In this document: positions 4,644 to 7,242 of the stretch, one piece after another
How positions within the stretch are numbered: position 1 is the first letter of the stretch
Layout: each line of letters begins with the position of its first letter
From: an uncultured Flavobacteriales bacterium
GTDB taxonomy: Bacteria > Bacteroidota > Bacteroidia > Flavobacteriales_G > Salibacteraceae
Direction: 5' to 3'
DNA length: 37,473 nucleotides
Assembly: GCA_913057205.1 (NCBI GenBank)
Contig: CAJXNO010000026.1
Coordinates: forward strand, 1-37,473
Notes under the pieces: model-generated
Databases searched by the model: none
Told to the model about the DNA's origin: nothing
Seen by the model: only the letters and a program-made list of their open reading frames with translations
Made by a program: the position numbers and the translations under genes

Positions 4644-5318
4644 ATGTCAACACGTATTAGACTTCAGCGCCACGGTAAAAAGGGCAAACCTTTCTTCCAC
4701 ATTGTAGTAGCTGACCAACGAGCAAAGAGAGACGGACGTTTCATCGAGAAGCTCGGAACTTACAACCCGAATACCAATCCTGCCACCATCGACCTCGATT
4801 TTGAGCGTAGCGTGCATTGGGTTTCTGTTGGTGCTCAACCTACAGATACTGCCCGTGCTATTCTTTCGTATCGCGGTGTTTTGATGAAAGAACACTTGCT
4901 TCGCGGTGTGAAGAAGGGAGCCTTGACGCAAGAACAAGCGGAGGCGAAGTTTGAGAAATGGCTCGAAGAGAAGGCTGGAAAGATCGAGAAAAAGAAAGAC
5001 GAGCTTACGAAAGATGCAGAGAAAGAACGTGCAGAACGTTTGGCTGCAGAACGTAAAGTAAGTGAAGAGCGTGCAGCTGCATTGACTCCGCAACCAGAAG
5101 AAGAGGAAGCACCTGCTGAGGAAACAGATACTGAAGAAGCGGCTGAAGCAACTACAGAGGCTCCTACTGAAGAGGTGAAGGAAGAAGCTCCCGCTGAAGA
5201 AGCTCCTGCTGAAGAAGCGAAGGAAGAAGCTCCTGCTGAGGAAGCGAAAGAGGAGGCTCCAGCTGAAGAGGCGAAGGAAGAAGCTCCTGCTGAAGGCGAA
5301 GAAGAGAAGAAGGACTAA
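4644..5318 (+). CDS. rpsP: 30S ribosomal protein S16 with long acidic repeat tail
   Basis: Residues 1 to about 82 are a canonical S16 domain ([20 protein letters not shown], then [12 protein letters not shown] and an [10 protein letters not shown] segment), a 30S assembly protein. The rest is not found in most bacterial S16 proteins: a charged, probably helical segment at about 95-148 (Lys/Glu/Arg-rich) and an extremely acidic Glu-Ala-Pro tail at about 150-224 built on the nonapeptide KEEAPAEEA. At 224 aa it is far longer than the roughly 80-90 aa of E. coli or Bacillus S16. Extended S16 proteins are common in Bacteroidota, but the length of this tail is notable. It is first gene of the rpsP-rimM pair. 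Confidence 0.97.
5178..5303 (+). repeat. In-frame 27-bp repeats encoding KEEAPAEEA in rpsP
   Basis: Three full KEEAPAEEA nonapeptides (residues 179-187, 193-201, 202-210) and a variant fourth unit, with an inserted PAEEA pentapeptide after the first. The DNA units are close to identical and in frame, so copy number may vary by slippage among relatives. Confidence 0.8.
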
Positions 5319-5344
5319 ACTTTCTTCCGATAATCATACTTTCG

Positions 5345-5373
5345 AAACCCTGACCTTAGGTTGGGGTTTTTTT
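5345..5373 (+). terminator. Intrinsic terminator between rpsP and rimM
   Basis: The stem AACCCTGACC (5346-5355) pairs with GGTTGGGGTT (5359-5368) across a TTA loop, with two G-T wobbles, and a run of seven T occupies 5367-5373. The rimM ATG begins at the very next base, 5374. The structure can therefore act as a terminator or attenuator for rpsP and also forms the immediate leader of rimM. Confidence 0.75.
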
Positions 5374-5871
5374 ATGTCAGCATACGTAAACATAGGTTCA
5401 GTCATCAAGCCGCACGGACTCAAAGGAGCCGTGGCGTGCCATGTAGATGCGCTCTACTTTGATGTGTTTCAAGGAGCAGAAATGATTTTTATTGATCACA
5501 GCGGTTCGTTTGTTCCTTATAGTATTTCATCCAATGATGTACTTACAAAAGACCGCTTCAAGGTTCAACTTGCTGGAGTGGATGATCAGTCGGAAGCTGA
5601 ACTCCTTCGTGGAAAGGAGATTTTCTTGCCGGAAGAAGATCTTCCCGAGCATGCTCAGATCGAGTTGGAAGGCTTTATGGTGTACATCAAAAGCCACGGA
5701 GAACTAGGAGTGATCAGTCAGGTGATTGAGCAATCTACACAAGTGCTGATCGAGGTGGAAAAGGATGAACAGACCTGGTTGATTCCTTTCGTAGAAGCCT
5801 TTATCCTGTCGATTGACCCAGAAGAGCAGCGCATCGATATGGAACTTCCGGATGGACTTCTAGACATTTGA
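5374..5871 (+). CDS. rimM: Ribosome maturation factor RimM
   Basis: A 165-aa protein with the RimM order: an N-terminal beta-barrel (YVNIGSVIKPHGLKGAV at 4-20) and a C-terminal PRC-barrel-like half (TWLIPFVEAFILSIDPEEQR near residues 133-152). RimM binds S19 in the 30S head and assists late 16S processing and assembly. The ATG at 5374 is the only start that keeps the conserved N-terminal GSVIKPHGLKG. No purine-rich ribosome-binding site precedes it; it follows directly on the T-tract of the rpsP terminator. Linkage to rpsP is the usual bacterial arrangement. Confidence 0.95.
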   Translation: MSAYVNIGSVIKPHGLKGAVACHVDALYFDVFQGAEMIFIDHSGSFVPYSISSNDVLTKDRFKVQLAGVDDQSEAELLRGKEIFLPEEDLPEHAQIELEGFMVYIKSHGELGVISQVIEQSTQVLIEVEKDEQTWLIPFVEAFILSIDPEEQRIDMELPDGLLDI

Positions 5872-5875
5872 TGGC

Positions 5876-6883
5876 ATGCGGCGTATTCTGACTTCTATCG
5901 TGTTCATCGTTGCCTTATCAAACCTCCTTTTTGCGCAGAAATGGAATGGTTGGATCCTTCAAGCGGAACAAGAGGTCTTGCAAACCAACCATGCGGATGC
6001 CATCAAGGCTACCTCAGCGAATATGGTGGTGTTGACCCCCATTGCCTTGGCTTCTGATATGATACCTAGGTTGGAATGGAATACCGATTGGCAATGGGTT
6101 GGTGAGCGCGATACCGGAATCATCTCTGCTGTCCAAGTACTAAAGCAGCAAGGACTTCGATGTGCGATCAAGCCGCGCTTGGCCATGGAAGGTCCAGGAG
6201 CGGTGGATCAGCTGGAGATGCTTGGTCCGAACGACTGGAAAGTATGGTGGGGAGATTACAGTGCTTATATCTTGCACTTTGCACACATCGCAGATTCGCT
6301 GGATGTAGTATGCTTTGTGATCGGTGATGCGTTGTCAAGCACCATGAAACCCTTGGCTCCAGAGTGGGAAACCTTGATCGACTCCATCCGGAGTTTCTAC
6401 GATGGAACACTGACGTATGCGGCGCACAGTGATCGGTATGAGCAGGTGCCGTTTTGGGATAAGCTCGATGTGATCGGCATCAATGCTCATTACCGATGCG
6501 ATTCCAGCGAAACACCCGACACCCGTATTTTGGAAGCATGCTTTTCTGAGCAAAGGAATGCGCTTGCTGAGTTCTCCAATAGTACTGGTAAACCGGTACT
6601 GTTCACCTCTTTCGGCTTCCGAAGCGTAGATCAAACCGCTTGGGAGTCAGACGCAATGCCGTCTATTCAACATGAACTCTTCTTACATACCAATCCGCTT
6701 GGACAGGTACATGCTTTTCGATCCTTTTTCAAAGTGTTCTGGAAAGAGGAGTGGCTCAGAGGAGGGTGGATTTATAAATGGGAACCTAGACAACCGATAT
6801 TCGCCACAACGGGCAACGGCTATACGCCTCAAGGCAAGGCTGCCTTAGATGTCATCAAGGCGTGGTTCGGGCAATTCCAGTGA
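5876..6883 (+). CDS. Secreted GH113-like protein, probable pseudoenzyme
   Basis: 335 aa with a signal peptide (about 1-20, ending LLFAQ) and a clan GH-A TIM-barrel look. WNGWILQAE, NMVVLTPIA, the strand near residue 96 (CAIKPRLAM), FVIGDALSS (147-155), DVIGINAHY (198-206), PVLFTSFGFRS (240-250) and GGWIYKWEP resemble GH113 beta-mannanase-like proteins. In active GH-A enzymes the acid/base Glu sits at the end of strand 4 (G-x-E or NE) and the nucleophile Glu at the end of strand 7 (T-E-x-G). Here those places read G-D-A (Ala152) and T-S-F-G (Ser245). The likely role is carbohydrate binding or a scaffold rather than hydrolysis; this is an inference. The ATG at 5876 lies 4 bases after rimM, so the genes are probably cotranscribed. 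Confidence 0.7.
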   Translation: MRRILTSIVFIVALSNLLFAQKWNGWILQAEQEVLQTNHADAIKATSANMVVLTPIALASDMIPRLEWNTDWQWVGERDTGIISAVQVLKQQGLRCAIKPRLAMEGPGAVDQLEMLGPNDWKVWWGDYSAYILHFAHIADSLDVVCFVIGDALSSTMKPLAPEWETLIDSIRSFYDGTLTYAAHSDRYEQVPFWDKLDVIGINAHYRCDSSETPDTRILEACFSEQRNALAEFSNSTGKPVLFTSFGFRSVDQTAWESDAMPSIQHELFLHTNPLGQVHAFRSFFKVFWKEEWLRGGWIYKWEPRQPIFATTGNGYTPQGKAALDVIKAWFGQFQ

Positions 6884-6894
6884 ACAGGGGAGGG

Positions 6895-7242
6895 TTAGTC
6901 TTCTTTTCCATTCTCACCGAGCTCATCAAAACTGATGTCGGTGAACTGGTTGTTGAGCTTGTGTTCTAAATGCTCGCTTTGCTCTTTGTTTAGGTCAATG
7001 ATCTTCTTGAAGCTTTCGCCCAGCGCATCGCTGAATTTCTCAAAGTCTTCTTTGTAAAGGAAGATTTTGTGCTTCTGGTAACTCACAGAGCCGTCTTCAT
7101 TGAAGCGCTTCTTGCTCTCGGTGATCGTTAAGTAATAGTCTTTGTTCTTCGTTGAACGAATGTCAAAGAAGTAGGTTCGCTTCCCTGCTCTTACCGCGTT
7201 GGCGTAAATCTCATCACGTCCGTTTGCTCCATTGTCTTCCAT
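6895..7242 (-). CDS. DUF3276 / PUR-alpha-like nucleic-acid-binding protein
   Basis: A 115-aa acidic protein matching the Bacteroidota and spirochete DUF3276 (PUR-family) pattern: RAGKRTYFFDIRSTKNKDYY at about 19-38, then TITESKKRF, KIFLYKEDFEKF and an acidic C-terminal tail. PUR-domain proteins bind single-stranded DNA or RNA; the target here is unknown. It converges on the GH113-like gene with an 11-bp gap and no visible terminator. It has its own promoter upstream. Confidence 0.85.
   Translation of the reverse strand: MEDNGANGRDEIYANAVRAGKRTYFFDIRSTKNKDYYLTITESKKRFNEDGSVSYQKHKIFLYKEDFEKFSDALGESFKKIIDLNKEQSEHLEHKLNNQFTDISFDELGENGKED

Follow-up and report, generated by a model that had tools for sequence, protein, structure and literature searches.

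The gene that lies directly behind rimM in the window (the whole stretch of 37,473 nucleotides analysed here, from an uncultured Flavobacteriales bacterium) raises the question of whether it still encodes a glycoside hydrolase of family GH113, or whether the fold of that family has been kept while its chemistry was given up. The gene and its immediate surroundings are arranged as follows.

4644..5318, + strand: rpsP (ribosomal protein S16; PF00886), start of a likely transcription unit
5374..5871, + strand: rimM (PF01782, PF24986), immediately 5' of the GH113-fold gene
5876..6883, + strand: GH113-fold gene of 335 aa, a pseudoenzyme candidate lacking both catalytic glutamates (Pfam, PDB, predicted model, alignment)
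5876..5935, + strand: signal-peptide-like N-terminus, residues 1-20, read by eye; helix 2-19 in the model
6895..7242, - strand: DUF3276 gene, the convergent right flank, syntenic among relatives

The reading frame of the GH113-fold gene is intact; it is separated by 4 nt from rimM and by 11 nt from the convergent DUF3276 gene, beyond which lie an ABC transporter and a Glu/Leu/Phe/Val dehydrogenase. Between rpsP and rimM, at 5344-5370, there is a terminator-like hairpin of 12 pairs with a T run, possibly an attenuator inside the operon; the region holds 5 terminator-like sites, against 2.9 expected. The protein begins with MRRILTSIVFIVALSNLLFA followed by Q, with an apparent cleavage point, read by eye, between A20 and Q21. 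It has no lipobox Cys, and its first 95 residues are free of cysteine. Based on this Sec-signal-like N-terminus, export of the protein into the periplasm or the medium is plausible, and to that extent the proposal of the earlier note that the protein is secreted holds up.

By sequence and predicted fold, the window protein is a GH113 (β/α)8 TIM barrel. Pfam PF22612 (GH113) matches residues 41-307 with an E value of 1.4e-32 and 113.7 bits, the cut-off being 27 bits, and the best solved relatives found by phmmer in the PDB are all GH113 β-mannanases: AaManA (4cd6, E 9.2e-17; 3civ), BaMan113A (7dv7 and its variants) and 5yli/5ylh. An AlphaFold model whose input was the window protein together with six relatives (mean pLDDT 75.9, pTM 0.81; segments 13-16, 106-110, 249-271 and 302-318 below pLDDT 50) superposes on the solved GH113 enzymes with Z scores of 30.5-31.0 and rmsd values of 2.3-2.6 across 280-286 residues, while the next structural matches, GH5 mannosidases, reach Z scores of at most 22.4. 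NCBIfam assigned no family to the protein, and the viral_contigs scan confirmed no relative.

A GH-A retaining glycosidase carries one catalytic Glu at the end of β4 and another at the end of β7. In a multiple alignment with AaManA, whose catalytic residues are E151 and E231, the window protein has Ala and Ser at these two positions, just as the earlier note had read them, and three further strand-end residues that are invariant in 95 relatives are replaced as well. The five codons are listed here.

6329..6331, + strand: Ala152 (GCG), β4 acid/base position (AaManA E151)
6425..6427, + strand: His184 (CAC), end of β5; Asn in 95/95 relatives
6488..6490, + strand: His205 (CAT), end of β6; Tyr in 95/95 relatives
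6608..6610, + strand: Ser245 (TCT), β7 nucleophile position (AaManA E231)
6773..6775, + strand: Tyr300 (TAT), end of β8; Trp in 95/95 relatives (AaManA W281)

The predicted model agrees with this placement, as β4 spans residues 146-151 with A152 right after it, and β7 spans residues 241-249 and contains S245. We searched the two catalytic motifs in the alignment for a Glu that might have shifted to take over either role; none was found, and the sole acid nearby is D151.

The changes extend well beyond the catalytic pair. Seven columns are invariant in the 95 relatives (E152, N184, Y205, E245, G247, G296 and W300), and the window protein has lost five of them, namely both glutamates together with N184, Y205 and W300, keeping the two glycines. 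Across the 49 columns that are at least 80% conserved it departs at 14: W103A, E152A, N184H, W185S, Y205H, F206Y, P207R, L208C, W223F, E245S, Y248F, P258S, W259D and W300Y. Conserved residues of the substrate pocket of a GH113 enzyme are replaced at N184H, Y205H, W300Y, W103A, W185S and W259D. For PcMan113, an active mannanase, the catalytic pair E152/E232 and a set of eight substrate-binding residues (N98, W104, R105, D183, Y204, W282, D283 and Y300) are described as strictly conserved in the comparison of GH113 members made there (PMC10992819). If the one-residue offset from AaManA numbering given by the catalytic pairs applies throughout, PcMan113 D183, Y204 and W282 would correspond to His184, His205 and Tyr300 of the window protein.

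Retaining glycoside hydrolysis is not to be expected of a protein with this sequence, because the two carboxylates are lost and so are the Asn, Tyr and Trp that belonged to the pocket, and the ancestral sugar subsite appears to have been largely dismantled. The earlier note had held that the barrel motifs surrounding the two catalytic positions are retained; this holds for the scaffold and fails at the active site, where W103A, N184H, Y205H, W259D and W300Y are examples to the contrary. Its suggestion of a sugar-binding role is likewise weakened, because N184, Y205 and W300, three further invariant residues, are gone.

The Ala/Ser state was seen in one genome only. GH113 matches were found in 2 of 13 genomes of the genus sample (the window's own counted), 9 of 35 of the family sample, 12 of 42 of the order sample, 49 of 395 of the class sample and 78 of 395 of the phylum sample, the last two being even samples that overlap the other sets; a scan of named genomes gave 6 loci. 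Every matched locus was taken into the survey except four weak matches below the cut-off from the phylum sample. Once duplicate and contained ORFs had been set aside, the family model hit 134 distinct ORFs, and both catalytic columns were aligned in 129 of these: 127 have Glu/Glu, one has Glu/Gln, and the window protein alone has Ala/Ser. The one other departure, L219:302-1411, keeps the β4 Glu and has Gln (MQTG) at the nucleophile position. Five ORFs have one column missing; L225 has Glu at β4, L230 has Glu at β7, and L121-L123, three remote sequences, have His, His and Arg at β4. Tandem pairs of GH113 genes were observed at L090 and L088, in G034 and G406.

With homology to an enzyme family, catalytic residues gone, and frame and predicted fold kept, the window protein answers to the description of a pseudoenzyme. 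We think it probable, going by sequence and model, that it is a lineage-specific one derived from GH113, in which the fold rather than the chemistry has been maintained. On this reading, an ancestor shared with the G008 and G030 copies described below would already have held a Glu-bearing GH113 gene behind rimM; the window lineage would then have rewritten its catalytic face, which lies at the C-terminal ends of the strands, with the barrel core under roughly normal constraint. What function is left may be that of a scaffold, or that of a binder of an altered ligand, for which an envelope glycan and a partner protein are candidates. A role as a mannan lectin is disfavoured, because the residues of the ancestral pocket are gone.

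The history of the locus bears both on this reading and on its main rival, which is slow decay: a dispensable GH113 gene, missing by now in most members of the genus that were examined, that has lost its function, is drifting, and is still open by chance and by virtue of its rpsP-rimM position. A GH113 gene occupies the same slot behind rimM in one genome of the same genus (G008) and in one of another genus of the same family (G030), and both of these copies retain the two catalytic glutamates. Of the 11 genomes compared at this locus, 8 (G001-G006, G011 and G012) have an empty slot, with rimM directly abutting DUF3276; in G007 a different gene adjoins rimM, and searches of G009 and G010 gave no rimM match. 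At L084, in G011, rimM appears as two overlapping ORFs that lie in different frames, broken by a frameshift or a sequencing error.

A quick GH113 tree, from which the 14 active-site columns were left out, groups the window protein with the G008 and G030 copies (SH-aLRT 95). A tree of five neighbouring proteins, rimM excluded, places the window genome (G000) with G005 and G011 (support 86/89, not starred); this probable sister pair has the empty slot in both genomes. Presence of the gene in the slot requires at least two changes on the five-neighbour tree, and the simplest story would be ancestral presence followed by repeated loss. Since the slot is empty in eight relatives, the probable sisters among them, the gene is dispensable in this lineage. 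The earlier note had placed the gene in a ribosome-maturation operon, and its position after rpsP and rimM is indeed as described; a functional link does not follow, given the eight empty slots and the presence of rimM in the fetched flank of just 3 of the 49 distinct GH113 ORFs in the loci covered by this comparison (the window, G008 and G030). The place behind rimM looks like an inherited address rather than a functional link. Nor do other surroundings suggest a pathway, as ten genes that lie close to GH113 copies in eight other genomes are of mixed kinds and include a sulfatase, a nucleoside phosphorylase, a DUF547 protein, a β-lactamase-like protein, an amidohydrolase and a SRAP protein. 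Among the top matches listed in the open-licence literature, nothing on rimM linked to glycoside hydrolases concerned the present case.

The rate of change gives slow decay some further support. In counts of the Tajima type, residues unique to the window and to G008 number 60:29 for the GH113 protein versus 106:100 for the five neighbours pooled (p 0.015), and 50:28 when the 14 active-site columns are removed (p 0.06). Three-taxon branch lengths (LG+G4), given as window : G008, are 1.62 : 0.63 for the GH113 gene and 1.52 : 0.64 with the 14 columns removed, compared to 0.28 : 0.33 for rpsP, 0.29 : 0.25 for DUF3276, 1.51 : 0.74 for rimM, 0.35 : 0.17 for the ABC transporter and 0.31 : 0.11 for the dehydrogenase (GDH). 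The GH113 gene is thus mildly accelerated by the Tajima counts, while its branch-length ratio of 2.6 stays within the spread of its neighbours, from 0.85 (rpsP) to 2.8 (GDH). There has been some relaxation or change, yet it is not spread evenly over the protein as a full loss of constraint would have it.

This uneven spread speaks against slow decay, since drift should strike the barrel core and the catalytic face alike. In the model, the stretch from the midpoint of each strand to the helix that follows was assigned to the catalytic face, and all remaining columns were counted as core; the boundaries were set from the model after the differences had been seen, and the p-values and profile scores that follow are indicative. 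In columns at least 90% conserved, 7 of 12 are changed on the face and 0 of 17 in the core (Fisher p 5e-4), which bears out the claim of the earlier note that the catalytic residues were lost with the scaffold kept. At a threshold of 80% the changed columns are 13 of 24 on the face and 1 of 25 in the core (p 1e-4). The contrast is weaker at 70% (16/34 and 7/38, p 0.012), at 95% (5/9 and 0/6, p 0.044) and at 99% (5/6 and 0/1, p 0.29) than it is at 90%. We also computed a profile score that uses no conservation threshold, with the same face and core boundaries. The 121 rows scored have 250 or more filled columns each, and six rows that were odd or remote were omitted. The window face scores 0.41, the lowest of the 121 (mean 1.86, sd 0.50), while its core scores 1.50, which is 18th lowest (mean 1.77, sd 0.28), about 1 sd under the mean and inside the family range; the residual of the face given the core has a z of -3.2.

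Taken with the intact frame and export-like N-terminus, these results lead us to regard slow decay as possible but unlikely. It is favoured by the eight empty slots, by the mild acceleration, by an Ala/Ser state that occurs in no other of the 129 ORFs, and by the lack of a second copy, as a family search of the window genome gave a single GH113 match.

A second alternative is that the pocket was re-equipped, with D151 (β4), H184 (β5), H205 (β6) and S245 (β7) forming a new metal site or a Ser-His-acid hydrolytic site. The replacements do bring an Asp, a Ser and two His together on the ends of adjacent strands, much as is seen in metal-dependent TIM-barrel hydrolases, and at 90% conservation every changed column lies on the catalytic face. 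However, none of the 95 relatives has His184, His205, Ser245 or Asp151, so conservation lends the idea no support, and the changes from N to H and from Y to H each need a single nucleotide change. We believe this alternative to be improbable, and we put slightly less faith in its bolder form, in which a mannanase barrel would have been re-equipped at D151/H184/H205/S245 for unrelated chemistry within a single genus while keeping its address behind rimM.

That the protein is still a glycosidase by way of other residues, for example with D151 as acid/base and a distant carboxylate, is very improbable: D151 does adjoin the acid/base position, in a column that is Thr in 72 of 95 relatives and Asp in none, but no acidic residue stands at or beside the β7 position (FTSFGFRS), and N184, Y205 and W300 are lost. 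Finally, an assembly or sequencing artefact, for which only the singleton state speaks, can be given a negligible likelihood and was rejected, because a single sequencing error cannot account for Ser245, all three bases of codon 245 (TCT) differing from either Glu codon, because 14 well-conserved positions are altered, because synteny agrees with the relatives, and because the assembly, in 68 contigs, has a completeness of 99.94% and a contamination of 0.17%.

Compared with the GH113 β-mannanases (AaManA 4cd6, 5yli, BaMan113A 7dv7 and PcMan113), the putative pseudoenzyme shares the family (PF22612), the fold and most of the conserved core; it differs in that the two catalytic Glu are missing and, with them, the Asn, Tyr and Trp that are invariant in the pocket. 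Glycosidase-type barrels without catalysis that are reused for binding or regulation are familiar from heparanase-2 and Klotho. These are animal proteins of other GH families with known roles, and the analogy would extend to the window protein insofar as it, too, is a barrel from which no catalysis is expected. No report of a GH113 pseudoenzyme appeared among the top matches listed in a search of the open-licence literature.

Bacteroidota GH113 proteins have resisted functional assignment. For the large Bacteroidetes clade 5 of GH113, one study states that the catalytic residues are kept, that members rarely lie in polysaccharide utilisation loci (26 of 661) and that most have signal peptides; seven soluble members were inactive on all substrates assayed, and the clade was left without an assigned activity (PMC9032380). 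Judging from its relatives, the window protein would belong to this clade; it is likewise a Bacteroidota GH113 protein and differs from the members described in having lost the catalytic residues. An orthologue with an erased site at the same address as Glu-bearing copies offers a built-in control for telling catalysis from binding.

A separate group of GH113-like lipoproteins, reached from three remote GH113 hits, comprises 11 proteins from 11 genomes in seven other families of the class (L154-L163 and L165; surroundings L184-L194). Their profile aligns with that of GH113 at an hhalign probability of 97% (E 7.7e-11, 187 columns), and their PDB matches are to GH113 only (best E 3.2e-05), while Pfam recognises three of the 11, of which two exceed its cut-off and one falls short, the other eight having no family. 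Their lengths, counted from the first start codon, are 240-344 aa. All 10 aligned sequences share a Cys at the end of the apparent signal peptide, the eleventh being cut short, and the group has its own C-terminal motif, N-L-x-G...K-N-x-L-R-F-W. At the β7 nucleophile position none of the 11 has Glu (Q in six, H in two, and N, R and A), and at β4 one has Glu, four have Asp and six have other residues. Kinship of the window protein with this group was considered and is not supported, as the window protein is distant in sequence, has neither the early Cys nor the C-terminal motif, and groups with the G008 and G030 copies in a tree that left out three lipoprotein-type sequences. That these lipoproteins lack the nucleophile suggests more than one origin, within this bacterial group, of a non-catalytic role for the barrel. 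A common neighbour gene is present at 4 of the 11 lipoprotein loci, and in the three tested it encodes a glycosyltransferase of family 9.
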